This document shows positions 1,527-48,454 of a DNA stretch of 55,103 nt, in pieces. The stretch spans positions 1-55,103 of the forward strand of contig JADLDG010000091.1 of NCBI GenBank assembly GCA_020846775.1. Direction: 5' to 3'. The notes beneath the pieces are model-generated. The model saw only the letters and a list, made by a program, of their open reading frames with translations. It did not search any database and was not told where the DNA came from. The number at the start of each line of letters is the position of its first letter. The stretch's first letter is position 1. Position numbers and translations under genes: made by a program. The stretch is from Nitrospirota bacterium. GTDB taxonomy: Bacteria; Nitrospirota; 9FT-COMBO-42-15; HDB-SIOI813.

Positions 1527-3290
1527 ATGAATAAACTTGATGTCAGTAAGATCCTGGAGGAGATAGGCATCCTCCTTGAGCTTAAAGGCGAAAATCCCTT
1601 TAAATTCAGGGCGTATCATAATGCAGCAGTATCTGTTGAGGCGCTTGAAGAAGATTTGGATAAGGCCATCGAAGATGGCACTCTTGCGGAACAGAAGGGT
1701 ATAGGAAAGGGTCTGTATGAAAAGATAGTTGAGCTCAATCGCACTGGCCGCCTTAAATACTACGACGACCTTAAAAAGGAGCTCCCTGCCGGTCTTCTGG
1801 AGATCATACGGATTCCTGGTGTTGGTCCAAAAAAGGCAAAGGCACTTTTCGATGAACTTGGAATATCTACTGTAGGTGAGCTTGAGTATGCCTGCATTGA
1901 AAACAGGCTCGTTGGTCTTCATGGTTTTGGTGAAGCTACTCAGGAGAAGATATTAAAAGGGATAGAGTATTACAGGAAGGGGATGGGACATCACCTTTTT
2001 AATGTTGCCCTGAAGGACGCTGAACGACTTCTTTCTTTACTGGATAAGAATAAGGATGTCAAGATGAGCAGTATTGCCGGAAGTATCAGACGCAGAAAAG
2101 AGGTTATCAAGGATATAGATATTGTGGCAAGTGCCAGACACAAGAGTGCAGAATCGGTCATGGACTTCTTTACTACCCTTCCTGATGTCCAATCCATTAC
2201 AGGTAAAGGTGATACCAAATCAAGCGTTATTCTTAACAGTGGTATAAATGCTGATCTTAGAATTGTTTCTGACAGCGAGTACCCTTTTGCTCTCCATTAC
2301 TTCACGGGCAGCGCCGAACACAATACTGCGATGCGCAGCCGTGCAAAGAAATTCGGCCTCAAATTGAACGAATATGGTCTCTTTAAGGGAGAAGATTCTT
2401 TACCATGTAAGAGTGAGGAGGAGATATTCAAGGCCCTCGGACTCATGTACATTCCCCCTGAGTTGAGAGAGGATAAGGGGGAGATCGAGGCAGCAGAACA
2501 GGGCAGCATACCAGAGCTAATTGAATCCGATGATATAAAAGGGATTTTCCATGTGCATACTACATACAGTGATGCAAACATGACACTGCATGAGGCTGTG
2601 ACTCTGGCAAAGGGGGCAGGTTATCAGTATATAGGCATCACAGATCATAGTAAATCTGCATACTATGCAGGAGGTCTCACTGAAGAAAAATTGCGTGCGC
2701 AGCATGATGAGATTGACGAATTAAACAGCAAGCTAAAAGACTTCTATATATTTAAGGGAATAGAGTGTGAGATACTCTCTGATGGTTCCCTTGACTACAA
2801 TGATGAAATACTATCCAAATTCGATTTTGTGATTGCCTCGGTTCACAGCGGATTCAATATGAGCGAAGAGGTGATGACTGAGAGGATTATCACGGCGATA
2901 TCTAATCCATATACAACCATGCTCGGTCATCCTACAGGGCGTCTGCTCCTCTCAAGAGAAGGTTATAAGGTGGACATCTACAAAGTTATAGATGCTGCTG
3001 CAGAACATGGTGTTGCAATTGAAATAAACGCCCACCCCTACAGGTTGGATCTGGACTGGAGGTACTGTAAGTATGCAAAGGAGCGGGGAGTAAAGATCAG
3101 CATTAACCCTGATGCCCACCATGCAGAAGATATCGCCAATGTCTCATATGGAGTCGGAATAGCAAGAAAGGGCTGGCTTACAAGAAAAGATGTATTAAAC
3201 ACCATGACTCTTGGAGAAATTAAGAAGAAATTTGCTCTGGGGAATGAAAATAATCCCCCTTACTCCCCCTTTTTCAAAGGGGGAAATTAG
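1527..3290 (+). CDS. polX: DNA polymerase/3'-5' exonuclease PolX
   Basis: A 587-residue family X DNA polymerase fused to a PHP nuclease domain, expected to act in gap-filling base excision repair. The N-terminal region (about 1-150) has helix-hairpin-helix motifs, including RIPGVGPKKAKALF. The nucleotidyltransferase core carries D196-I-D198 and a third acidic residue at D243 (NADLRIV). The PHP domain begins near residue 339 with FHVHTTYSD (H342, H344) and includes YIGITDHS and the late metal site SINPDAHH. The last residues (NNPPYSPFFKGGN) are encoded by the left part of a family A repeat, which also supplies the TAG stop. This tail is probably not ancestral. Confidence 0.95.
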   Translation: MNKLDVSKILEEIGILLELKGENPFKFRAYHNAAVSVEALEEDLDKAIEDGTLAEQKGIGKGLYEKIVELNRTGRLKYYDDLKKELPAGLLEIIRIPGVGPKKAKALFDELGISTVGELEYACIENRLVGLHGFGEATQEKILKGIEYYRKGMGHHLFNVALKDAERLLSLLDKNKDVKMSSIAGSIRRRKEVIKDIDIVASARHKSAESVMDFFTTLPDVQSITGKGDTKSSVILNSGINADLRIVSDSEYPFALHYFTGSAEHNTAMRSRAKKFGLKLNEYGLFKGEDSLPCKSEEEIFKALGLMYIPPELREDKGEIEAAEQGSIPELIESDDIKGIFHVHTTYSDANMTLHEAVTLAKGAGYQYIGITDHSKSAYYAGGLTEEKLRAQHDEIDELNSKLKDFYIFKGIECEILSDGSLDYNDEILSKFDFVIASVHSGFNMSEEVMTERIITAISNPYTTMLGHPTGRLLLSREGYKVDIYKVIDAAAEHGVAIEINAHPYRLDLDWRYCKYAKERGVKISINPDAHHAEDIANVSYGVGIARKGWLTRKDVLNTMTLGEIKKKFALGNENNPPYSPFFKGGN

Positions 3291-3331
3291 TTACCCCCCT
3301 ATAGAAAAGGGGGGTCAGGGGGGATTTGAAA
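3252..3331 (+). repeat. Family A palindromic repeat, copy A1
   Basis: This copy has the complete pattern: an outer AATCCCCC arm, an inner hairpin CCCCC-TTTTTCAAA-GGGGG, a second inner hairpin of CCCCCC and GGGGGG arms, then TCAGGGGGGATT closing the outer stem, and the flank TGAAAGG. It overlaps the 3' end of polX, supplying its last codons and stop. It ends about 22 bases before the start codon of the cyclase gene, with its G-rich end towards that gene. Confidence 0.85.
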
Positions 3332-7080: not shown

Positions 7081-7674
7081 ATGGGTTCACAAAGGAAGCT
7101 AATAATACCTTCCCCTTCAAGGGGAGGGAAAGGGTGGGGATGGGTTTGCCTCTTCTTATGCTCTTTCTTACTCCTCACGGCATGCGGATACCATATGGCC
7201 GGCACAGGCGGTCATCTTAAAACCGGTGTCAAATCGCTTTTTATCCCTGTCTTTGAAAATAAGACCATGGAACCTATCATAGAGGAGGATCTTACGGTCG
7301 CAGTTGTAAGGGAATTTCTGAAGGATGGGAGGATAGAGGTTGTTGACAAATCAAAGGCGGATATGATTTTAAAGGGGAGTGTTGTTTCCTATAAAGAAAC
7401 ACCTGTCTCCTTTGACGCCTCATATATTGTTGAATACCGGGTAACTGTAACAACACATTTAATTCTACAGGAGAATACCCCCCTCCAGATCGGGGAAAGT
7501 AAAGGACCAGTTCCTTCAGTCAATCCTCTCTGGGAAAAGGACATTACTTCAACTGCAGAATATAAGGTCAGCAGTGATGTCATGGTCACAAGGGTCTCAA
7601 AGCTTTCAGCGCTTAGAGAGATTGCAAGAAACCTCTCTGAGGAAGCAGCAGACAGGGTATTATTGGGATGGTAG
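7081..7674 (+). CDS. lptE: LPS-assembly lipoprotein LptE
   Basis: A 197-residue outer-membrane lipoprotein of the LptE family, the plug and partner of LptD in lipopolysaccharide insertion. The lipobox LLTAC gives lipidation at C35, followed by GYHMAG as in the family, and VKSLFIPVFENKTMEP is the typical first strand. The C-terminal part has VSKLSALREIARNLSEEAADRV. The signal peptide is unusual: its n-region contains PSPSRGGKGWGWV, encoded by a family B repeat (7108-7145). No alternative start lies downstream of the repeat and before the hydrophobic core, so the repeat must be translated. It follows leuS directly. Confidence 0.88.
   Translation: MGSQRKLIIPSPSRGGKGWGWVCLFLCSFLLLTACGYHMAGTGGHLKTGVKSLFIPVFENKTMEPIIEEDLTVAVVREFLKDGRIEVVDKSKADMILKGSVVSYKETPVSFDASYIVEYRVTVTTHLILQENTPLQIGESKGPVPSVNPLWEKDITSTAEYKVSSDVMVTRVSKLSALREIARNLSEEAADRVLLGW
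7108..7145. repeat. Family B repeat, copy B1 (translated in lptE)
   Basis: CCTTCCCCTTCAAGGGGAGGG with a GGGTGGGGATGGG tail. The core is a palindrome around CCCCTT/AAGGGG. Read in frame it encodes the arginine- and glycine-rich n-region of the LptE signal peptide. A second copy in mfd (45463-45503) encodes nearly the same peptide (PSPSRGGSGSGWG). Confidence 0.8.
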
Positions 7675-9020: not shown

Positions 9021-9029
9021 GTGAAGAAG

Positions 9030-9060
9030 AAGCAATGAGTGGAAAGCAATGAGCAATGAG
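9030..9060. repeat. Family E repeat, copy E1 (GCAATGAG repeats)
   Basis: A 31-base sequence made of three AGCAATGAG-type units (AAGCAATGAGTGGAAAGCAA followed by TGAGCAATGAG). Its exact reverse complement occurs at 23155-23185, and shorter versions occur at 19228-19264 and 48080-48098. Confidence 0.8.
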
Positions 9061-9077
9061 TAGACGATAGCGATGTG

Positions 9078-9157
9078 AATCCCCCTTAATCCCCCTTTTT
9101 CAAAGGGGGAAATAATCTACCCCCCTTTAGAAAAGGGGGGTCAGGGGGGATTTGAAA
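9078..9157 (+). repeat. Family A palindromic repeat, copy A2
   Basis: A complete copy: outer AATCCCCC arm, an inner hairpin of CCCCC and GGGGG arms, a second inner hairpin of CCCCCC and GGGGGG arms, and closing TCAGGGGGGATTTGAAA. It lies between rpsT and murJ and ends 12 bases before the murJ ATG, so the whole murJ ribosome-binding region adjoins the repeat. The G-rich end points to murJ. Confidence 0.85.
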
Positions 9158-17809: not shown

Positions 17810-19240
17810 CTATGCCGCAATTTTTTCGGCCCTGACTTCCAGTACCTTTTCCGTTGCCTGCGTCACCCCGAATCTTTCATCCATCCTGTATCCGGCAACC
17901 CACATGATACCTTCGGGTGAAGTAAGTATCGGTATCCTCTCTTTGTCTTTTCGGGATATTTTTAAATCAATAAAATATTCTTTTATCTTTTTTCTCTTTC
18001 CCCCCATTCCCTGCGGGCAAAAGAAATCACCTTCTCTGCGGTTTCTGACAATCAAGGGTTCCGTAAATTTATTAATATCAAAATATGCAGTATCTCTGCC
18101 GGTCTCTGCCTTATCCTGCGTACCTCTCTTCGGAAAAAGAGACGATCGTATTGTAGTGTTAATTTTTATACCGGCCTCATGCACTATAGTATCTCCGGGA
18201 ATTCTTACTGTTAAAGCATATTGTGGAGTTGATATAACCGATGACTGTAAATATATGCTGAATAAATCTCCTCTTCTCTCAGCCACTACTCCGGCAGGTA
18301 AATTAATTTCCCCCGACCTGTTATGATACAACAGTGAAAGGGCCTCTTCAACATGCTGAAAGGATAATGCAATACCCTCTGACCCCTTAAGAAATTCTAC
18401 GGCACATCTCACCAATCTTCTTTTTACCGGTTTTTCACAAGCGTTAAACCTCTTGACATCAAACTGTATAATACCATCTGCCTGATTTTTTACTACATCC
18501 CGGAACATTGTCTTAACATAATTCTCAAGAAATATGTCCTCATCCCTTAATACATTTAAACTCCTTATGATTGTATTCATGATATTAGGATTATATTCCT
18601 TTGCAAGATAAGGTATGAGTTCCAAGCGGATCTTGTTTCTAAGATAAACCGGGCTCAGGTTAGAGGAGTCAATCCTGCAACGTATATTATAAGAGGATAG
18701 GTACTCACTGATCTCTTTCCGAAGGACCCCGATAAGGGGCCTTATGATCATCCCCCTGACAGGCGGGATACCGGAAAGACCATGAGACCCTGAGCCCCTG
18801 AGGAGCCTCATGAGGAATGTCTCAGCCTGGTCATCCGCAGTATGACCAAGGGCTATCCTGTCTGCCCCGGTCTTATCAGATGCGGAACTGAGGAATCTGT
18901 AACGCACCTCTCGTGCAGCCTCCTGTTTTGATATACGCTCTGCCCTGGCATAGGCAGGGATATCCGAATATTCTGCAATAACCGGTATGCCAAGCGAATC
19001 TCCCATATCCTGAACAAACCTGGCATCGTCCTCCGCCTCTTCACCCCGGAATCCATGATTCAGATGAGCAATATTAAGGGAGAGGTTATTTTCATCCTGT
19101 AATTCCTTTAATACATGGAGGAGACAGACCGAGTCAGGACCTGAGGAGACGGCTACAAGCACGTTATCGCCGTATTCAAGCATTTTGAAGTGCTTAATCG
19201 TTTCCCGGACTTTTTTTATCAGGGCATTCTCATTGCTCAT
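17810..19240 (-). CDS. tilS: tRNA(Ile)-lysidine synthase
   Basis: A 476-residue enzyme that converts C34 of the AUA-reading tRNA-Ile to lysidine. The N-terminal PP-loop ATP pyrophosphatase domain has VAVSSGPDSVCLLH, in which the usual SGG is SSG. LNIAHLNHGFRGEEAEDD and ALGHTADDQAETFLMRLLRG follow. The C-terminal substrate-binding domain has FCPQGMGGKRKKIKEYFID. The start codon overlaps the ribF stop (ATGA), so the genes are translationally coupled. Its first codons (MSNE) come from a family E repeat. Confidence 0.93.
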   Translation of the reverse strand: MSNENALIKKVRETIKHFKMLEYGDNVLVAVSSGPDSVCLLHVLKELQDENNLSLNIAHLNHGFRGEEAEDDARFVQDMGDSLGIPVIAEYSDIPAYARAERISKQEAAREVRYRFLSSASDKTGADRIALGHTADDQAETFLMRLLRGSGSHGLSGIPPVRGMIIRPLIGVLRKEISEYLSSYNIRCRIDSSNLSPVYLRNKIRLELIPYLAKEYNPNIMNTIIRSLNVLRDEDIFLENYVKTMFRDVVKNQADGIIQFDVKRFNACEKPVKRRLVRCAVEFLKGSEGIALSFQHVEEALSLLYHNRSGEINLPAGVVAERRGDLFSIYLQSSVISTPQYALTVRIPGDTIVHEAGIKINTTIRSSLFPKRGTQDKAETGRDTAYFDINKFTEPLIVRNRREGDFFCPQGMGGKRKKIKEYFIDLKISRKDKERIPILTSPEGIMWVAGYRMDERFGVTQATEKVLEVRAEKIAA

Positions 19241-19264
19241 TGCTTCTTCATTCTCATTGCTTCT
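19228..19264. repeat. Family E repeat, copy E3 (ribF-tilS junction)
   Basis: On the minus strand AAGAAGCAATGAGAATGAAG is followed by AAGCAATGAGCAATGAGA. It spans the ribF stop codon and the tilS start codon. It shares the GCAATGAGCAATGAG core with the copies at 9030, 23155 and 48080. Confidence 0.65.
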
Positions 19265-20184
19265 TCTATCAACACTTCCTTTGCCCTTATAACATCATCC
19301 TTTATCTGTTGTATTAACTCTTCCTCGTTATCAAATTTCTTTTCATCCCTGATTAATTTAACAAACTGAACCGTCAGGTGCTCGTGGTATAGTTCTCCGT
19401 TGAAGTCAAAGAGAAATACCTCTATGCCAATCTTTTCTCCGGCAAATGTCGGCTGATTTCCTATGTAACATGCACCGTCTAAAACAACGTGCCCCCGTAA
19501 GACCCTGACTGCATAAATTCCGTTTTTTGGAATCGCCTCATAAACAGTATAGATGTTTGCCGTAGGGTAGCCTAATACCACCCCGCGGTGATGACCAGGC
19601 ATAACTACGCCATTTATTGAATAGTCTCTCCCCAGAAGACCTGCTGCCATGTCAACCTCACCTTTAGAGAGGTGCTCCCTAATCCTTGAACTGCTGACCC
19701 TGTTCCCGCCGATTTCAACAGGGTCTACCACTTCGACTTCAAAGCCCAGCATCTTTCCCTTTTGACGCAGATAGTTAATATCCCCTGTCTGACCTTTTCC
19801 AAACCTGTAGTTTGCCCCGACAATAATGACCCTTGCACCGATCTTATTGCAGAGAATCTCCTCTGCAAATTCATCAGGAGATTTTCCGGCAAATTCAGGA
19901 GTAAACTCAATACAGATTACAACATTGATACCATACGACTGAAAAAGTTCTATCTTTTCCTGAAGGGATATTAATTGACACGGCGCCTTGTCCGGTCTTA
20001 ACACCTTTGCGGGGTGAGGCTCAAAAGTAATAACAACGCTGACGGCATTTATCTCATCGGCGCGCTTGATTACCCTTTTCAGGAGTTCCTGATGCCCAAG
20101 ATGAACCCCGTCAAAGTTTCCTATTGTCACGACCGTATTGTCGAGACCATTAGGAATAGCGGCAATACCCCTGATAATATTCAA
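19237..20184 (-). CDS. ribF: Bifunctional riboflavin kinase/FAD synthetase
   Basis: A 315-residue enzyme making FMN and FAD from riboflavin. The N-terminal adenylyltransferase domain (about 1-180) has VVTIGNFDGVHLGHQELL and VVITFEPHPAKVL, with GANYRFGKGQTGD near the middle. The C-terminal kinase domain has INGVVMPGHHRGVVLGYPTA and NGIYAVRV. No FMN riboswitch is visible: the gene starts four bases after hemB. Its 3' end overlaps tilS, and the C-terminal tail EEAMRMKKQ is encoded within a family E repeat. Confidence 0.95.
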   Translation of the reverse strand: MNIIRGIAAIPNGLDNTVVTIGNFDGVHLGHQELLKRVIKRADEINAVSVVITFEPHPAKVLRPDKAPCQLISLQEKIELFQSYGINVVICIEFTPEFAGKSPDEFAEEILCNKIGARVIIVGANYRFGKGQTGDINYLRQKGKMLGFEVEVVDPVEIGGNRVSSSRIREHLSKGEVDMAAGLLGRDYSINGVVMPGHHRGVVLGYPTANIYTVYEAIPKNGIYAVRVLRGHVVLDGACYIGNQPTFAGEKIGIEVFLFDFNGELYHEHLTVQFVKLIRDEKKFDNEEELIQQIKDDVIRAKEVLIEEAMRMKKQ

Positions 20185-22998: not shown

Positions 22999-23104
22999 TT
23001 TCAAATCCCCCCTGACCCCCCTTTTCTAAAGGGGGGAATCTGATTTCCCCTTTGAAAAGGGGGGCTTCATTTCCCCCTTTGAAAAAGGGGGATTAAGGGG
23101 GATT
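22999..23104 (-). repeat. Family A palindromic repeat, copy A3 (extended)
   Basis: Read on the minus strand, the copy has the outer AATCCCCC arm, three inner C-run/G-run hairpins instead of two, and the closing GTCAGGGGGGATTTGAAAGG. It fills the space between hemA and hemC, with its G-rich end 12 bases before the hemC start codon. The extra hairpin probably arose by internal duplication. Confidence 0.8.
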
Positions 23105-23154
23105 ATTTTCATGCGCCTTTGCGAGCCCGCACTAACGTTTATTCACCATCATTT

Positions 23155-23185
23155 CTCATTGCTCATTGCTTTCCACTCATTGCTT
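23155..23185. repeat. Family E repeat, copy E2
   Basis: An exact reverse complement of the 31-base copy E1 at 9030-9060, located just after the hemA stop on the minus strand. Identity over 31 bases at about 14 kb distance indicates a mobile or recombining repeat rather than chance. Confidence 0.75.
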
Positions 23186-23186
23186 T

Positions 23187-24491
23187 TTATACTCCGTCAT
23201 CCTCTCCGTTCTCCTCAGCCACCCTGACCTCAAGGTTAAATATCTTTTTTATCGTCTCTGCATACAAAAGGCCATTGCTCGAATCAGCTTCTGATTTAAG
23301 TGTTACAAGCGGACCATGCAGTATCTTACTAACAATCATATTCGTAAGACCGTCAACAGCTGCTATCTCTTCCGGAGTGAGTGTACGAAGTCTGTCTGAG
23401 ACCCTTTCCATCTCCCTTTTCCGTATCTCCTCAACCTTATCTCTGAGGGCAACGATGGTAGGCACAACCTCAAGGGATTTAAACCACTTTGTGAAGGTCT
23501 TAACCTCTTCCACAATTATTTGTTCCCCTTTATCTGCCTCATCTTTTCGCGTCCTGCGATTTGCCTCAACTACCGCCTGCAGATCATCAATGTCATATAG
23601 AAATACATTATCAATCTTATTGATAGCCGGGTCAATATTTCTCGGGACGGATATATCTATAAGAAATATAGGACTGTTTTTCCTCTTATGAATAATATCC
23701 TGCATATGCTCAGCCCTGATAACATAATCCGGGGCGCCTGTTGAACATATTACAACATCTGATTTGCTCATTTCCTCTAAAAAATATTCAAACCTTACAG
23801 CCCTGCCTTTATATGTCTGTGCAAGAGTAAGCGCCCTGTCATAGTTTCTCGTTGAGACCACTATCTCTCTGATGCCGCTGCTGACAAGATAATTTGCTGC
23901 AAGCTCACCCATCTCACCTGCGCCGACCAGCATCCCCCTCTTATCCCTTAAACTACTGTATATCTTTTTGGCAAGCTCAACTGCGGCAAAGCTTATAGAC
24001 ACTGCATTTTCAGCTATCTTAGTCTCAGTCCGTACCCGTTTTGCCACAGATATGGACTTTTTAAACAGCTTATTTATGATCGCACCGGTCGTCTTGTTAA
24101 GAAGCGCCGTATCAAAGGCATCTTTTACCTGTCCAAGGATCTGCGGCTCCCCCACTACCATGGAATCAAGGCTTGAAGCAACCCTGAAGAGGTGTTTTAT
24201 GGCCGCCTCATTTTTATTAATATAGAGGTGTTGTGAGATGGATTCCAGAGGCAGGGCCGTCTGATATGAGTGCAGAAAATCCTTGATCCGCGCGATACCG
24301 ATCTCAGACTTGTCAACTATAGCATAAATCTCTACACGGTTGCATGTGGAAAGAATAAGACATTCACTGATATTTTCATATTCCCTGAGCCGTTTGATCC
24401 CATCTGACAGCATCTGACCTGAAAATGACAGTTTCTCCCTGACTTCAACCGGGGCCGTATTATGACTAAGTCCAACTAATATGATGTCCAT
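23187..24491 (-). CDS. hemA: Glutamyl-tRNA reductase
   Basis: A 434-residue first enzyme of the C5 pathway to 5-aminolevulinate. The catalytic cysteine is C50 in LSTCNRVEIYA, and GLSHNTAPVEVREKLSF precedes it. The NADPH domain has MLVGAGEMGELAANYL and CSTGAPDYVI. A C-terminal dimerisation helix follows. The complement (hemL, hemE, hemN) is not in the window. It follows ccsA by 20 bases. Confidence 0.96.
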   Translation of the reverse strand: MDIILVGLSHNTAPVEVREKLSFSGQMLSDGIKRLREYENISECLILSTCNRVEIYAIVDKSEIGIARIKDFLHSYQTALPLESISQHLYINKNEAAIKHLFRVASSLDSMVVGEPQILGQVKDAFDTALLNKTTGAIINKLFKKSISVAKRVRTETKIAENAVSISFAAVELAKKIYSSLRDKRGMLVGAGEMGELAANYLVSSGIREIVVSTRNYDRALTLAQTYKGRAVRFEYFLEEMSKSDVVICSTGAPDYVIRAEHMQDIIHKRKNSPIFLIDISVPRNIDPAINKIDNVFLYDIDDLQAVVEANRRTRKDEADKGEQIIVEEVKTFTKWFKSLEVVPTIVALRDKVEEIRKREMERVSDRLRTLTPEEIAAVDGLTNMIVSKILHGPLVTLKSEADSSNGLLYAETIKKIFNLEVRVAEENGEDDGV

Positions 24492-36107: not shown

Positions 36108-36217
36108 TTCAAATCCCCCTGCCCCCCTTTTCTAAAGTGGGGTAACTGCTTTCCCCCTTTGAATAAAAGTGAGTAACTAATTTCCCCCTTTGAAAAAGGG
36201 GGATTAAGGGGGATTTG
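36108..36217 (-). repeat. Family A palindromic repeat, copy A4 (degenerate, extended)
   Basis: Read on the minus strand: an outer AATCCCCC arm, CCCCC-TTTTTCAAA-GGGGG, a degenerate middle hairpin with altered arms, a CCCC/GGGGGG hairpin and the closing GGGGGATTTGAAAGG. It fills the gyrB-gyrA gap and its G-rich end lies 34 bases before the gyrA start codon. Confidence 0.75.
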
Positions 36218-43298: not shown

Positions 43299-46200
43299 TT
43301 AAACATACCCCCCTACAACTTTCAAGCAGTTTATTATTTCAGAAAACATTGATACAGTCTCTTTATTTTTCAACAACATTTGAAACTTGTATTCTGAGAG
43401 AAACTGGATTTTATTGGCATAGATTTTAAGGAGTTTTTGCAATATATCCTTGTTATTCTTAGTAACCTCAGGGTCAACAGTAAAGACTATGCCGTTCTCA
43501 CCTTCTTCTATCTTAGAAACCCTGGTCATACAGGCTGACAATTTAATTTCTATAATCTTTAGAAGGTTTTCCACCTGCACAGGCACCGGACCATAACGGT
43601 CAAGCATCTCTTCCTGTATAGAAAAGATCTGTTCTTTTTCTCTAATTGATGAGAGTCTCTTATACAGAGAAAGCCTCTGTGATGAATCACTTATATATTC
43701 CTCAGGTATAAAAGACGCTATCCTCAGATTTATTGTAGGGATAAAATCCTCCTCTACCTTTTCACCCCGTAGATGCTTGACCGCCCGGTCAAGCATCTGG
43801 GTATAGAGCTCAAAACCTACAGACGAAATGTGACCTGACTGCTTGCGGCCAAGCAGATTGCCTCCGCCCCGTATCTCAAGGTCCTTGTTTGCGAGACGGA
43901 AACCAGCGCCAAGACCGGTAAGTTCCTGTATAGCCTTTATCCTTTTTTTAGAATCTGACGTCAGGGCCTCATCTGCAGGCACTATCAGATATGCGTAGGC
44001 CTGGTGACCGGACCGGCCGACACGTCCCCTGAGCTGATACAGATCTGCAAGACCGAACATATCTGCACGATTGATGATGATAGTGTTTGCATCAGGTATA
44101 TCAAGACCTGACTCAACTATGGCGGTACAGACAAGGAGGTTATAATCACCATTAATAAACTTGATCATGACATCTTCAAGCAGTTTCTCTCTCATCTGTC
44201 CATGGGCCACCCCTATCCGTGCCTCCGGTACGAGCTCCTGCAGTAGATTTGCGATGCCTGCTATATTTTCTATCCTGTTGTGAACAAAATAGACACTCCC
44301 CCCCCTGTCAAATTCACGCAGGATGGCGCTCCTTATTATCCTTTTATCGAAAGGGATTATGACGCTATGGATGGCAAGCCGGTCTTCCGGAGGTGTCTCA
44401 ATGACGCTTAAATCACGGATTCCAAGCAGCGCCATCTGGAGGGTTCTGGGAATAGGCGTTGCTGAGAGGGACAGGACATCTACACTCTTGCGTATCTGTT
44501 TTAGCCTCTCTTTCTGCGACACCCCGAACCTCTGTTCCTCATCAACGATAAATATGCCGGCATTTCTGAATGAAATATTCTTCTGCAGCAGGCCGTGTGT
44601 CCCAATAATAATGTCAATAGTGCCTTCTGCAAGTCCCCTGATAATCTCCTTCTGTTCTTTAAGAGTCTTGAAACGGCTCAGCATCTCTACACGAACAGGA
44701 AAAGATGCAAACCGGCGGGCGAATGTCTGATAATGCTGCTGGGCCAGCAGAGTCGTGGGGACAAGTATTGCGGCCTGTTTACCCTCTATGACCACCTTAC
44801 AGACGGCCCTTAACGCAACCTCTGTCTTTCCATAGCCAACATCCCCGCAGATAAGCCGGTCCATGGGTTTTTGTGTGCCAAGGTCCCTCATTACATCTTC
44901 AATTGCAGTCAGCTGGTCCGGTGTCTCTTCAAATTCAAAGGAAGACTCAAATTCCGTCATAAGGTGGACTTCCGGCAGATATGGAGACCTCTCTACAACC
45001 ATACGTGCTGCATACAGCTCTACCAGGTCCTCGGCAATTTCTTCAATCGCCTTTTCTACCCGTCTCCTGGTTTTTTCCCACTGAGACCCCTGGAGTTTGT
45101 CAATGTGCGGGGCATGTCCCTCTGCACCGGCATATTTCTGAACCAGGTCCATCTTGTTAACAGGGACATAGACATAGTCATTTCCCGAATATCTTATGCA
45201 TAGGAAATCACCCTCTCCACCGCTCAGTATCTTTCTCACAAGCCCGTCATACTGTCCTATACCATGCTGGAGATGGACCACATAGTCACCCTTATTTAGA
45301 TCCTGAAATGACGTCTGAAAGGGGCGGGACTTCTGCTTTGGAGGCGGCCGCCGCCTGCCCCGTTTACCGAAGATCTCTTCCTCTGTTATAAATATCAGGT
45401 ATGCATCCGGATAAAAAAACCCCGAAGAGAGGTGGCCTGTTATGATGTGTACCGGAAGAGAACCCCATCCCGACCCTGACCCTCCCCTTGAAGGGGAGGG
45501 AACCTTTTCGGCTCCCTTGCGTAACAGTTGCGACAAATTAGCCGTATCAGTAATGGTTGCAGGAACGTCATACTCAATAAATAAGTCCCTGAACCGCTCC
45601 GCCTGCCCGTCTGTAGGTGACACAAGTACAAGGAGGTTCTCTTTCCTTAGAATGTCCAGCCTTTCTGCGATATCTTTTAAGGAAAATGAAAATCCCCCCG
45701 TATCCCCCATTTTCAAAGGGGGACTTATATTCCCCCCTTTAGAAAAGGGGGGTACGGGGGGATTTGAACGTGTCTCTGTAAGCAGCAATGATGTCGAATT
45801 AATAGAAACAGAAGCAGTGCCTTCAATAGGTATAGACTCAATATCTATCTTATTCTTAAACAGGCTTCGGATATCTACAATCTCATCCCATGGAAAATAT
45901 AATTTCTCCGGCTCCGCAACACGGCGTCCCTGGAGCAGGGCGTCCTTATAAATCTCCAGGATCTGAGACCAGTATTCTGAGGAATTTTGTTTGATCTCTG
46001 CCGCCTCATCAAATATTAAAGTATCTTCATCAGAAAGATATTCAAAAAGCGAACCGCCGGACGCCTGCTGTTTGCGGTGGTTCTCAAGGTGTGGCAGCTC
46101 CTTTGCCGGCATAATAACAGCAGACTCCATCTGACTTACAGATCTCTGTGTCTCAGGATCAAAACTCCGCAATGACTCTATAGAATCCCCAAAGAATTCT

Positions 46201-46865
46201 ACCCGGACAGGGTATTCCTCTCCGGGAGAGAATATGTCAACTATACCGCCCCGAAGAGAGAATAATCCACGATGAACCACCAGGTCAGAAGGCTCATAAC
46301 CTATGTCAACCAGGTGTGCTGCAAGCGCCTCTTTGTCCATCTCCATACCAGGCTCGATCTTCTTAATCAGACCCTGTAATGTGCCGGGTGTTATCACCTG
46401 CTGGATCATGGAATAAGCCGGACTCACAAAGATCCCGCGCCTTCCTGATAATAATGCAAGATATCCTGACATCCTTATGTGTGTTATGTCAGTATGTGGA
46501 AGTATGGTGTCATACGGAAGGATTTCCCAGTAAGGAAATGAGAATAAGTCGGGAGGGGAGAGGAAGAATCGTGAAAATAACCTGAGGTCCGTAAGCAAAG
46601 CCTCTGCTGTTTCACCGTCCGGGGTAACTACGAATATAGAGTGAGTTGTCCGATCAAAGAGTTCTGTCAGGAAGAGGGCCTTTGATGACCCCCAGAGGCC
46701 GCTGATTTTAGATACCTGTTCACCCGGGGATACAGCCTCCCCTTCATTCTGAACTTGTCTCAGAACCCCCTTTGTTATGTTATTTAAAATTTTAGAAAAA
46801 AGATCTGACAAGAGAGTGCAAGAATCAAATCCCCCCTTACCCCCCTTTACTAAAGTGGGGCACAA
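43299..46865 (-). CDS. mfd: Transcription-repair coupling factor Mfd, carrying translated repeats
   Basis: An 1188-residue translocase that removes stalled RNA polymerase and recruits UvrA. The N-terminal UvrB-like region has GSSKALFLTELF and REGRGGIVDIFSPGEEYPVR-like sequence; the RNA-polymerase-interacting domain follows LNKGDYVVHLQHGIGQYDGL. The motor has Walker A GDVGYGKTEVA and DEEQRFGVSQKERL. Segments derived from repeats are in frame: about residues 366-391 (family A copy A5), 455-467 (family B copy B2) and the N-terminus (A6, then D2 near 32-41). The start GTG 46865 lies in copy A6 with GGGGGAG just upstream; homology begins only near residue 52, so the true start is uncertain. Confidence 0.93.
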   Translation of the reverse strand: MCPTLVKGGKGGFDSCTLLSDLFSKILNNITKGVLRQVQNEGEAVSPGEQVSKISGLWGSSKALFLTELFDRTTHSIFVVTPDGETAEALLTDLRLFSRFFLSPPDLFSFPYWEILPYDTILPHTDITHIRMSGYLALLSGRRGIFVSPAYSMIQQVITPGTLQGLIKKIEPGMEMDKEALAAHLVDIGYEPSDLVVHRGLFSLRGGIVDIFSPGEEYPVRVEFFGDSIESLRSFDPETQRSVSQMESAVIMPAKELPHLENHRKQQASGGSLFEYLSDEDTLIFDEAAEIKQNSSEYWSQILEIYKDALLQGRRVAEPEKLYFPWDEIVDIRSLFKNKIDIESIPIEGTASVSINSTSLLLTETRSNPPVPPFSKGGNISPPLKMGDTGGFSFSLKDIAERLDILRKENLLVLVSPTDGQAERFRDLFIEYDVPATITDTANLSQLLRKGAEKVPSPSRGGSGSGWGSLPVHIITGHLSSGFFYPDAYLIFITEEEIFGKRGRRRPPPKQKSRPFQTSFQDLNKGDYVVHLQHGIGQYDGLVRKILSGGEGDFLCIRYSGNDYVYVPVNKMDLVQKYAGAEGHAPHIDKLQGSQWEKTRRRVEKAIEEIAEDLVELYAARMVVERSPYLPEVHLMTEFESSFEFEETPDQLTAIEDVMRDLGTQKPMDRLICGDVGYGKTEVALRAVCKVVIEGKQAAILVPTTLLAQQHYQTFARRFASFPVRVEMLSRFKTLKEQKEIIRGLAEGTIDIIIGTHGLLQKNISFRNAGIFIVDEEQRFGVSQKERLKQIRKSVDVLSLSATPIPRTLQMALLGIRDLSVIETPPEDRLAIHSVIIPFDKRIIRSAILREFDRGGSVYFVHNRIENIAGIANLLQELVPEARIGVAHGQMREKLLEDVMIKFINGDYNLLVCTAIVESGLDIPDANTIIINRADMFGLADLYQLRGRVGRSGHQAYAYLIVPADEALTSDSKKRIKAIQELTGLGAGFRLANKDLEIRGGGNLLGRKQSGHISSVGFELYTQMLDRAVKHLRGEKVEEDFIPTINLRIASFIPEEYISDSSQRLSLYKRLSSIREKEQIFSIQEEMLDRYGPVPVQVENLLKIIEIKLSACMTRVSKIEEGENGIVFTVDPEVTKNNKDILQKLLKIYANKIQFLSEYKFQMLLKNKETVSMFSEIINCLKVVGGYV
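45463..45503. repeat. Family B repeat, copy B2 (translated in mfd)
   Basis: Contains CCCTCCCCTTGAAGGGGAGG, with an adjoining ACCCCATCCCGACCCTG arm. On the minus strand it encodes PSPSRGGSGSGWGS, nearly the same peptide as the lptE copy. It lies just before the RNA-polymerase-interacting domain of Mfd. Confidence 0.8.
45691..45768 (+). repeat. Family A palindromic repeat, copy A5 (inside mfd)
   Basis: A complete 78-base copy (26 codons) within mfd, in frame: outer AATCCCCCC arm, a CCCCC/GGGGG hairpin, a CCCCCC/GGGGGG hairpin and closing TACGGGGGGATTTGAA. On the mfd coding strand it reads NPPVPPFSKGGNISPPLKMG then DTGGF. It is the only copy whose orientation is opposite to the gene it affects. 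Confidence 0.88.
46742..46769. repeat. Family D repeat, copy D2 (within mfd 5' end)
   Basis: CTTCATTCTGAACTTGTCTC followed by AGAACCCC, matching the pattern of copy D1 at 21216. On the mfd strand it encodes part of GVLRQVQNEGE (residues about 32-41), before conserved Mfd sequence begins. Confidence 0.55.
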
Positions 46866-46969
46866 TCTCCCCCTTACTAAAAGAAAGTCGGAGATAATTT
46901 CCTTCCTATCTTAAAGAAAGGGGAGAAACTAATTTCCCCCTTTGAAAAAGGGGGATTAAGGGGGATTTA
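46826..46969 (-). repeat. Family A palindromic repeat, copy A6 (hldE2-mfd junction, extended)
   Basis: Read on the minus strand: the outer AATCCCCC arm overlaps the last codons and supplies the TAA stop of hldE2. The inner CCCCC-TTTTTCAAA-GGGGG hairpin, a degenerate middle part and a final G-rich arm GGGGGGTAAGGGGGGATTTG follow. The GTG used as mfd start and its ribosome site lie inside the element. Confidence 0.75.
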
Positions 46970-47464: not shown

Positions 47465-48091
47465 TCAAGAAGGGTCTCCAAACATTACGTCTTCTACAAC
47501 CTGGCAGATGACATGGCCCAGGGTAATGTGTACCTCTTGTATCCGGGCGGTATCTTTCGACGGGACTATGAAGGCATAATCCACAATGGATGCAAGTTTG
47601 CCGCCGCTGCCTCCGGTCAGGCCGATAGCTATAATCCCCATCTTTTTGGCGGTTTCCACAGCCGCTAAAATATTAGGAGAATTTCCGCTTGTGCTTATCG
47701 CTGCTACAACATCTCCAGCTCTCGCAAGGGCCTCTACCTGACGGCTGAAGACATGGTTGAATCCATAGTCATTACCTATACAGGTTAAAACTGCCGTGTC
47801 TGTATTAAGAGCTATGGCAGGGAGTGGCGGGCGATCATTCTTAAACCTGCCTATAAATTCACCTGCAATATGAGAGGCATCAGTAGAGCTTCCGCCATTT
47901 CCCATCAATAAGAGCTTATTACCATTCCTGAAGCAGGAGACAATCAGTTCAGAGACCTCCATGATCAGAGAGGCATATTGCGACACGAACTGCTCCTTTA
48001 CCCTGATGCTGTCAGAAAAAAGGTCTGTTATCCTGTCGTCAGTTCTTTTTTTACTCTTTCCTTCACTTTTACTTGCTAACTCATTGCTCAT
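47465..48091 (-). CDS. gmhA: Phosphoheptose isomerase (SIS domain)
   Basis: A 208-residue enzyme that makes D-glycero-D-manno-heptose 7-phosphate from sedoheptulose 7-phosphate. The SIS domain has LLLMGNGGSSTDASHIAGEF, GDVVAAISTSGNSPNILAAV and ARIQEVHITLGHVICQVVE, as in GmhA. It precedes hldE2, so the two act in heptose synthesis for the LPS core. The first codons (MSNE) and their upstream bases form a family E repeat; the start is nine bases after hpf. Confidence 0.92.
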   Translation of the reverse strand: MSNELASKSEGKSKKRTDDRITDLFSDSIRVKEQFVSQYASLIMEVSELIVSCFRNGNKLLLMGNGGSSTDASHIAGEFIGRFKNDRPPLPAIALNTDTAVLTCIGNDYGFNHVFSRQVEALARAGDVVAAISTSGNSPNILAAVETAKKMGIIAIGLTGGSGGKLASIVDYAFIVPSKDTARIQEVHITLGHVICQVVEDVMFGDPS

Positions 48092-48098
48092 TGCTTCT
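48080..48098. repeat. Family E repeat, copy E4 (hpf-gmhA junction)
   Basis: CTCATTGCTCATTGCTTCT on the plus strand; on the minus strand AGAAGCAATGAGCAATGAG containing the gmhA start codon. It matches copy E3 at the tilS start, so two unrelated genes begin with the same codons. Confidence 0.6.
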
Positions 48099-48100
48099 TA

Positions 48101-48454
48101 TTACTCCGTCTTCCGGGGCTTTTTCTCCGCCCGCCGTATTTTATATGTGTGCTCTTTTTTCATCATATCCTTAAACTTCTTGACCTCCCTCAGCAGTTCA
48201 TCAAAGGCAAGATTCATTGCATTAAAGGCATCAAACCCCTCGTCTTTAGCCCGCAACGTTTTCTTTGGAACGGCAAGGGTCAGTGAAACATAATACTCCT
48301 CCCGACGTGCCTGTTTTTCAAAAGTTACTTCAAGGCGTATCGTATCATCATCAAAGCTCGAAAGAAGCTCTTCAACCTTGCTGACCTTTTTTTCAAGCAT
48401 TGCCTCTACCTGCGGCATAGGTTCAAGATTTTTGTAAAAAATGTTGCATATCAT
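48101..48454 (-). CDS. hpf: Ribosome hibernation promoting factor (short HPF/YfiA type)
   Basis: A 117-residue beta-alpha ribosome-binding protein that inactivates ribosomes in slow growth. It has ICNIFYKNLEPMPQVEAMLE, FDDDTIRLEVTFEKQARREE and a C-terminal KRE-rich helix with FDELLREVKKF. It lacks the second domain found in long HPF. It starts four bases after the DHH protein gene. Confidence 0.85.
   Translation of the reverse strand: MICNIFYKNLEPMPQVEAMLEKKVSKVEELLSSFDDDTIRLEVTFEKQARREEYYVSLTLAVPKKTLRAKDEGFDAFNAMNLAFDELLREVKKFKDMMKKEHTYKIRRAEKKPRKTE

Follow-up and report, generated by a model that had tools for sequence, protein, structure and literature searches.

Dispersed palindromic repeats within the reading frame of mfd in an uncultured Nitrospirota bacterium

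Palindromic repeats that reside inside protein-coding genes are exemplified by the Rickettsia palindromic elements (RPEs), reportedly described by Ogata et al. in 2000. RPEs are about 105–146 bp long, fall into several families and occupy both intergenic positions and in-frame sites in unrelated conserved genes, according to passages of two reports (PMC2229807, PMC10969869), the former of which also presents the RPE-tagged enzyme gmk as translated and active. Repetitive extragenic palindromes (REPs) are, in the relevant sections of PMC3733652, mostly intergenic, some being in frame in repair genes (uvrA, UvrD, DNA polymerase I), where they are thought to be tolerated in loops; the recB genes of two Xanthomonas species carry different REPs at about the same site. 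A third group is formed by miniature inverted-repeat transposable elements (MITEs) with open reading frames (ORFs), such as ERIC/RU-1, Correia and BOX, portrayed in excerpts of PMC2229807, PMC2759123 and PMC3049150 as small, non-autonomous elements that combine terminal inverted repeats with a frame free of stops. A start codon can be present in BOX, and BOX-encoded ORFs are described in the excerpt of PMC3049150 as being without good Shine-Dalgarno candidates. Here we describe palindromic repeats in mfd, the gene for the transcription-repair coupling factor, on a contig of an uncultured Nitrospirota bacterium (JADLDG010000091.1 of assembly GCA_020846775.1; the whole stretch of 55,103 nucleotides that was analysed is referred to as the window).

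The window contains an intact mfd ORF on the minus strand (43299–46811, ending at 43299; 1170 aa), the product of which possesses the Pfam domains UvrB_inter, CarD_TRCF_RID, DEAD, Helicase_C and TRCF and matches a solved Mfd chain with an E-value of 3.3e-222. Three palindromic inserts are positioned in frame within this ORF, all on the minus strand. A5 (45690–45767), a 78-nt palindrome of family A, adds exactly 26 codons (SNPPVPPFSKGGNISPPLKMGDTGGF; residues 349–374 of 1170), as already noted in the initial annotation. B2 (45461–45503), a family-B palindrome, accounts for ∼14 codons (residues ∼437–450). The third, a family-C insert of ∼14 codons (VLRQVQNEGEAVSP; 46725–46766, residues 16–29), includes the palindrome TTCTGAACTTGTCTCAGAA at 46747–46765. 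Residue numbers refer to the 1170-aa form (1188-aa numbering minus 18).

A5, B2 and the family-C insert are absent from most of the relatives examined, and A5 was found in none of the 29 relatives aligned first (L018–L046, of which L037 begins beside the site). Native Mfd sequence as the origin of the inserts was thus ruled out by alignment to relatives, in agreement with the earlier proposal that the repeats are mobile or copied. The B2 palindrome recurs at 7108–7147 in lptE (two places, matched on both strands, with 0.01 chance matches expected), and the family-C insert matches other loci. The DNA of A5 folds with a z-score of about −7 and the corresponding RNA with −55 kcal/mol (z −6.7).

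A close relative of the window is the locus L226 (the same as L107), a 7.3-kb contig, C99 (MHEI01000099.1), of the metagenomic bin G002, which shares 82–91% DNA identity with the window over five blocks and is closer to it than the remainder of the bin. In L226, the same site contains A5, into which a family-C repeat is nested, and the frame is still open. At the B2 site, the B palindrome of the window is replaced in L226 by an A-type repeat, and the main G002 contig (L224) has neither. The family-C insert is common to the window and L226 and is absent from L223 (sister species G001) and L224. The inserts are missing from most relatives, the frame is open in two lineages, and different repeats are found at the same loops. 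The G002 bin itself holds two Mfd genes, on C99 and C67, the former contig being far nearer to the window organism than the latter, and therefore seems to mix two species.

The initial annotation had counted repeats of three families, including A6 and D2, as part of an mfd reading frame reaching position 46969. A5 and B2 indeed lie in the frame, but A6/D2, a composite A-family repeat (46826–46968, minus strand) made of two adjoining covariance-model matches (46826–46900 and 46894–46968) and overlapping the end of the upstream ORF, probably does not. The mechanical ORF call starts at a TTG at 46865, inside this repeat, and stop codons separate the ORF from position 46969. The N-terminal helix of the relatives (MYPFS...) aligns with 'MSDLFSKILNNITKG' read from a TTG at 46811, 14 nt downstream of the repeat, and L226 displays the same leader repeat followed by an in-frame TGA ahead of the same TTG. 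Taken with the Pfam domains and the structure match, these alignments indicate that TTG 46811 is most likely the start of mfd, giving 1170 aa. A coding role for A6/D2 is rejected on the basis of the N-terminal alignment and the in-frame stop of L226; the repeat probably lies in the leader of mfd, outside the protein.

In an AlphaFold model of Mfd built with 39 sequences (mean predicted local distance difference test score, pLDDT, of 80.5), pLDDT falls below 50 in six segments, among them residues 1–32, which hold the family-C insert, 347–375 (A5) and 438–449 (B2). The three inserts are thus apparently located in low-confidence loops, and all three precede the RNA-polymerase-interacting domain, in agreement with the earlier remark that A5 and B2 lie ahead of this domain, where a loop could be tolerated.

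Family A repeats are 77–78-nt palindromes consisting of an outer stem, which provides the terminal inverted repeats (AAATCCCCC/GGGGGATTT), and two inner hairpins; their DNA folds have z-scores of −2.8 to −7.3 (four folds of three copies). The core A hairpin occurs 99 times in the genome to which the window belongs, as opposed to once for a reversed control pattern, and A-type hairpins are present in all ten genomes of the family and in 35 of the 99 genomes examined. A covariance-model search for A in the window genome produced 134 matches on both strands, corresponding to at least 79 distinct places; this is a lower bound, since 150 of 599 candidates were scored. Of these places, 45 share no overlap of 20 nt with any ORF of at least 90 codons, and 15 lie inside an ORF. 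Ten interior copies belong to Pfam-supported ORFs, encoding, besides Mfd, nine host proteins that the initial annotation did not mention: DNA polymerase I (Pol I), a P-type ATPase, glycosyltransferase 9, AnmK, a metallo-beta-lactamase-fold protein, peptidase C26, two radical-SAM proteins and a BadF/DUF2229 protein. Two of these ORFs run off a contig end (the P-type ATPase, L049, and the HypC/radical-SAM protein, L091). Left out of the ten were UvrD, an Oxidored_q6 protein and a methyltransferase, whose true starts may be downstream of the repeat, as well as a fragment resembling prolyl-tRNA synthetase (ProRS) at a contig end and an ORF without a Pfam scan (L098).

Only one of the six frames of the A consensus is open (IPLNPPFSKGEISYPPLEKGGQGGF). 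This frame is used by eight of the ten domain-supported copies (the BadF copy uses another frame and the Mfd copy is antisense); among the copies are a DUF2344 one with one hairpin and uncertain orientation and several that are partial. The same frame is used by five of six interior candidates in G001. Such usage is as expected from the survival of translated inserts.

Occupation of one loop by different repeats is not confined to Mfd. The A insert of Pol I is present in none of eight family relatives covering the site, and in G007 and G009 the Pol I loop contains other sequence with matches to repeats among the fetched loci. The AnmK loop following DAALVE is filled with A in the window genome, with C-like sequence in G001 and G005, B-like sequence in G007 and another repeat in G003; in G004 the loop sequence includes an internal palindrome and, apart from that, matches only the distant locus L141. 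AnmK was accordingly rejected as an example of a clean insert: no empty site is seen, since every relative's loop is filled, four of six with repeat-matching sequence (fetched loci, same phylum). In the glycosyltransferase, an A-containing insert is shared with G003, a short unmatched insert is found in G001, and G002, G004 and G007 have little or none. Judging by these sequence matches, the repeat found in a given loop of Mfd, Pol I, AnmK or the glycosyltransferase varies between species or genera, and the exact insert sequence therefore seems not to matter.

Outside proteins, A repeats show a relation to translation starts that was likewise missing from the initial annotation. The longer form of A runs on, in aligned flanks, as GATTTG-AAAGGCTATTTTCGAG-TGAA (GATTTGAACGGAGATTTTCGAGTGAA in G001). 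When 69 of the 79 places were considered (ten outside 70–110 nt were dropped), 30 copies (20 GTG, 10 ATG) had, at +14 to +16 from the hairpin, an ATG or GTG with which an ORF of 100 or more codons begins; every other offset from −20 to +59 gave no more than two, as did the antisense control. In G001, where 150 of 660 candidates were scored and 63 of 76 distinct places used (the weakest 13 being dropped), a start codon was found at +14 to +16 in 28 of the 63, 24 of them at +15, and other offsets and the antisense control again gave at most two. The AAAGG/GGAG stretch ahead of the start resembles a Shine-Dalgarno site and may act as one. On the opposite side, 18 of the 69 copies have their left edge no more than 13 nt from the stop of an upstream ORF of 80 codons or more. 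Of the same 69, 39 have TGAA at the left edge, 44 at the right edge and 26 at both.

A appears to be a component of a larger unit. All ten family genomes contain the right end, [GT]ATTTTCRRRTGAA, with 19 to 404 occurrences over both strands, whereas none of 21 other genomes has more than ten, and control patterns gave 0 or 1; the left end, GCTCACAAAGG-N(2-5)-ATGAAAA, was found in nine of the ten (not in G006) and in one other genome. Some units enclose A between these conserved ends, others an unrelated palindrome: 73 intervening stretches fell into four clusters (31, 14, 9 and 6 members) and 13 singletons, some of them apparently ends paired by chance. Because A is often bordered by conserved ends that unrelated palindromes have as well, it looks like cargo in a composite mobile unit. 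Regardless of cargo, the ATG or GTG of the right end began, in phase 0, an ORF of 100 or more codons in 12/23 cases in the window genome, 17/37 in G001, 1/9 in G003, 4/41 in G007 and 1/6 in other family genomes; the respective numbers for phase 2 were 1, 1, 3, 4 and 1, and phase 1 gave none.

In G007 (L308–L321) and G003 (L322–L323), units of ∼120–180 nt were observed head to tail; they have conserved ends and a TGAA in common but differ in their inner palindromes.

A tentative reading, to which we give somewhat less than even chances, is that the composite unit is 'bilingual': one frame would constitute an open linker of ∼30 codons, while another register would offer the upstream gene a TGA stop on the left and the next gene a Shine-Dalgarno-like stretch with a start on the right, making it a mobile repeat adapted to translation rather than one that is simply tolerated. 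Such a unit could consequently enter operons with closely spaced genes, including places where stop and start overlap as ATGA, and spare both genes, and it would carry exchangeable hairpins between its conserved ends.

In our opinion, it is very probable that A5, B2 and the family-C insert represent dispersed palindromic repeats, copies of which entered mfd and have been kept owing to their open frame and loop position. Copies would survive where the frame is kept, the frame used is free of stops and the site is in a loop; they would then be translated as disordered linkers, most likely with little or no effect on Mfd. The same elements are mostly found outside proteins, frequently where two genes meet; there the longer form, which bears the Shine-Dalgarno-like stretch, abuts the start codon of the next gene. 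Translation and near-neutrality of the Mfd inserts are what we infer, and several points weigh against this explanation. Native Mfd loops differ in length between relatives, and at the B2 site G001 has an extension without a second copy among the fetched loci. Low pLDDT is partly expected in any stretch to which no relatives align, and three further low segments (244–250, 483–499 and 983–986) correspond to no identified insert. A5 is antisense to the A consensus, an orientation in which every frame holds stops, so that either a variant copy was inserted or the stops were lost afterwards. The Pol I loop of G003 is occupied by a stretch matching no repeat, as is the AnmK loop of G006. A comparison of two filled/empty junctions with L226, L223 and L224 gave no clear target-site duplication. 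Finally, the start-codon link, strong in the window's genus according to the right-end phase counts, is not seen in G003 and G007, from two other genera (5/50 ends in phase 0, 7/50 in phase 2), in a small and array-biased sample of regions picked for arrays or particular genes.

A rival proposal, that the palindromes are REP elements moved by a Y1 transposase of the REP-associated tyrosine transposase (RAYT) type, we find unlikely. The transposase search covered one family, Y1_Tnp, for which the window genome has one match (L001), presumably a RAYT, and a gene of this family is present in 70 of the 99 genomes. But no A copy is found in the 1.3 kb around the Y1 gene, which (L001, 850–2150) is flanked by inverted GGGGTCAGGTCTT, a repeat other than A. 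Furthermore, G007, which is 100% complete, has no Y1_Tnp match and yet contains 31 A-type hairpins and 404 right ends; G002 and G004, also without a match, have 20 and 6 A-type hairpins. Inspected by eye, the ends of A show neither a GTAG nor a CGTC tag; another cargo family, in G001, starts with CGTC. RAYT as the mover of A was thus sought and not supported.

Slightly less probable still is that the inserts change Mfd function and were positively selected, for instance by weakening repair and creating a mutator state. The genes mfd and polA are both excision-repair genes and make up two of the ten domain-supported hosts, and a section of PMC3733652 suggests selection of this kind for REPs in uvrA, uvrB, UvrD, DNA polymerase I and recBCD genes of other bacteria. 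Against this, the other eight host proteins are varied (ATPase, glycosyltransferase, AnmK, peptidase and others), the Mfd inserts are in low-confidence loops, and the same loops accept different repeats.

Ribosomes are known to skip an mRNA stretch in the case of bypassing elements, and the very stable RNA fold of A5 could in principle leave the insert untranslated in this way; this is highly improbable, as skipping would not need a frame that stays open in two lineages, nor the stop-free frame in which most in-protein copies lie. Even less credible is a misjoining of repeat copies into mfd during assembly: although repeats break assemblies, the source assembly is a draft of 136 contigs and two A copies are situated close to contig ends, next to ProRS-like fragments, A5 is flanked by continuous Mfd sequence and recurs at the same site, with its own differences, in L226 from another assembly.

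Other A-family copies in the window lie at or near gene boundaries. One (3251–3328, plus strand) overlaps the end of an ORF and is followed by another ORF, and a second (9077–9154, plus) has the ATG of the next ORF 15 nt downstream. A copy with an extra hairpin (23002–23105, minus) is likewise 15 nt from the ATG of the next gene (N-terminus MKEIRIGSRG), which we take to be hemC-like; at this junction G001 holds another palindrome. A similar copy with an extra hairpin between two genes (36110–36216, minus) is shared with G001 and was not found at the same junction in G002–G007. The B-family copy at 7108–7147 (plus) is translated near the N-terminus of lptE (ORF 7081–7674). The LptE N-terminus (MGSQRKLIIPSPSRGGKGWGWVC...LLLTACG, 7081–7195) appears to be composed of a left-end-like stretch and the B palindrome, and the repeat therefore seems to supply the n-region of the lipoprotein signal peptide; by eye, no in-frame start was found between the repeat and the lipobox. 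A simple repeat of AGCAATGAG / CTCATTGCT is located near gene starts (9027–9060, 19225–19265, 23151–23188 and 48076–48106) and at 48091 seems to give an ORF its start. The ProRS-like fragments near contig ends beside A copies (L097, end of G000 contig C17; L100, start of C58) may be parts of a single ProRS gene whose assembly was interrupted by a cluster of repeats.

Rfam searches over the window returned one tRNA only. Among 72,556 records of a plasmid collection, A-like matches were found in five, from Planktothrix and Synechocystis only. In plasmids of Planktothrix agardhii (H1–H4), the A-like repeat (81% identity over 77% of the query) coincides with annotated genes, which in three of the four records encode a DNA methylase or modification enzyme, and a similar element may thus sit inside genes in cyanobacteria.

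Among the known systems, the comparison with RPEs made in the initial annotation is apt as an analogy: likened by description, both groups are inserted in frame into unrelated protein genes, here ten domain-supported ones. In contrast to RPEs, the host is not a member of Rickettsiales (the nearest named genomes are Nitrospirae metagenome-assembled genomes such as RBG_16_43_11), many copies lie at gene junctions with fixed start-codon spacing, and conserved ends surround exchangeable palindromes, the same loops carrying different families between species or genera. REPs are similar in being mostly intergenic palindromes, some in frame in repair genes including DNA polymerase I, but A lacks a GTAG/CGTC tag and an adjoining RAYT. 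With MITEs, A shares terminal inverted repeats, a stable fold and one stop-free frame; unlike for MITEs, no parent transposon was found for A in the Y1_Tnp search, and its Shine-Dalgarno-like stretch differs from BOX ORFs as characterized in the excerpt of PMC3049150. In searches of one open-licence library we did not find a Nitrospirota host, mfd as a host gene, exchangeable palindromes between conserved ends or fixed start-codon spacing described before, and the main text of PMC3733652 does not contain 'mfd'; for different repeats at one site, there is one precedent, recB, in a section of PMC3733652. In-frame insertion of palindromes, most familiar in Rickettsia and a small number of genomes rich in REPs, thus has a counterpart in housekeeping and repair proteins of uncultured Nitrospirota. 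Since some loops are hit again by unrelated repeats, they show, as a natural map, which protein loops are permissive and offer a means of testing insert neutrality; the constant distance to the start codon in two genomes is suggestive of a small mobile repeat supplying translation starts. By analogy, the insertion into mfd can be regarded as the same kind of event as the insertion of RPEs into conserved genes and of REPs into repair genes.

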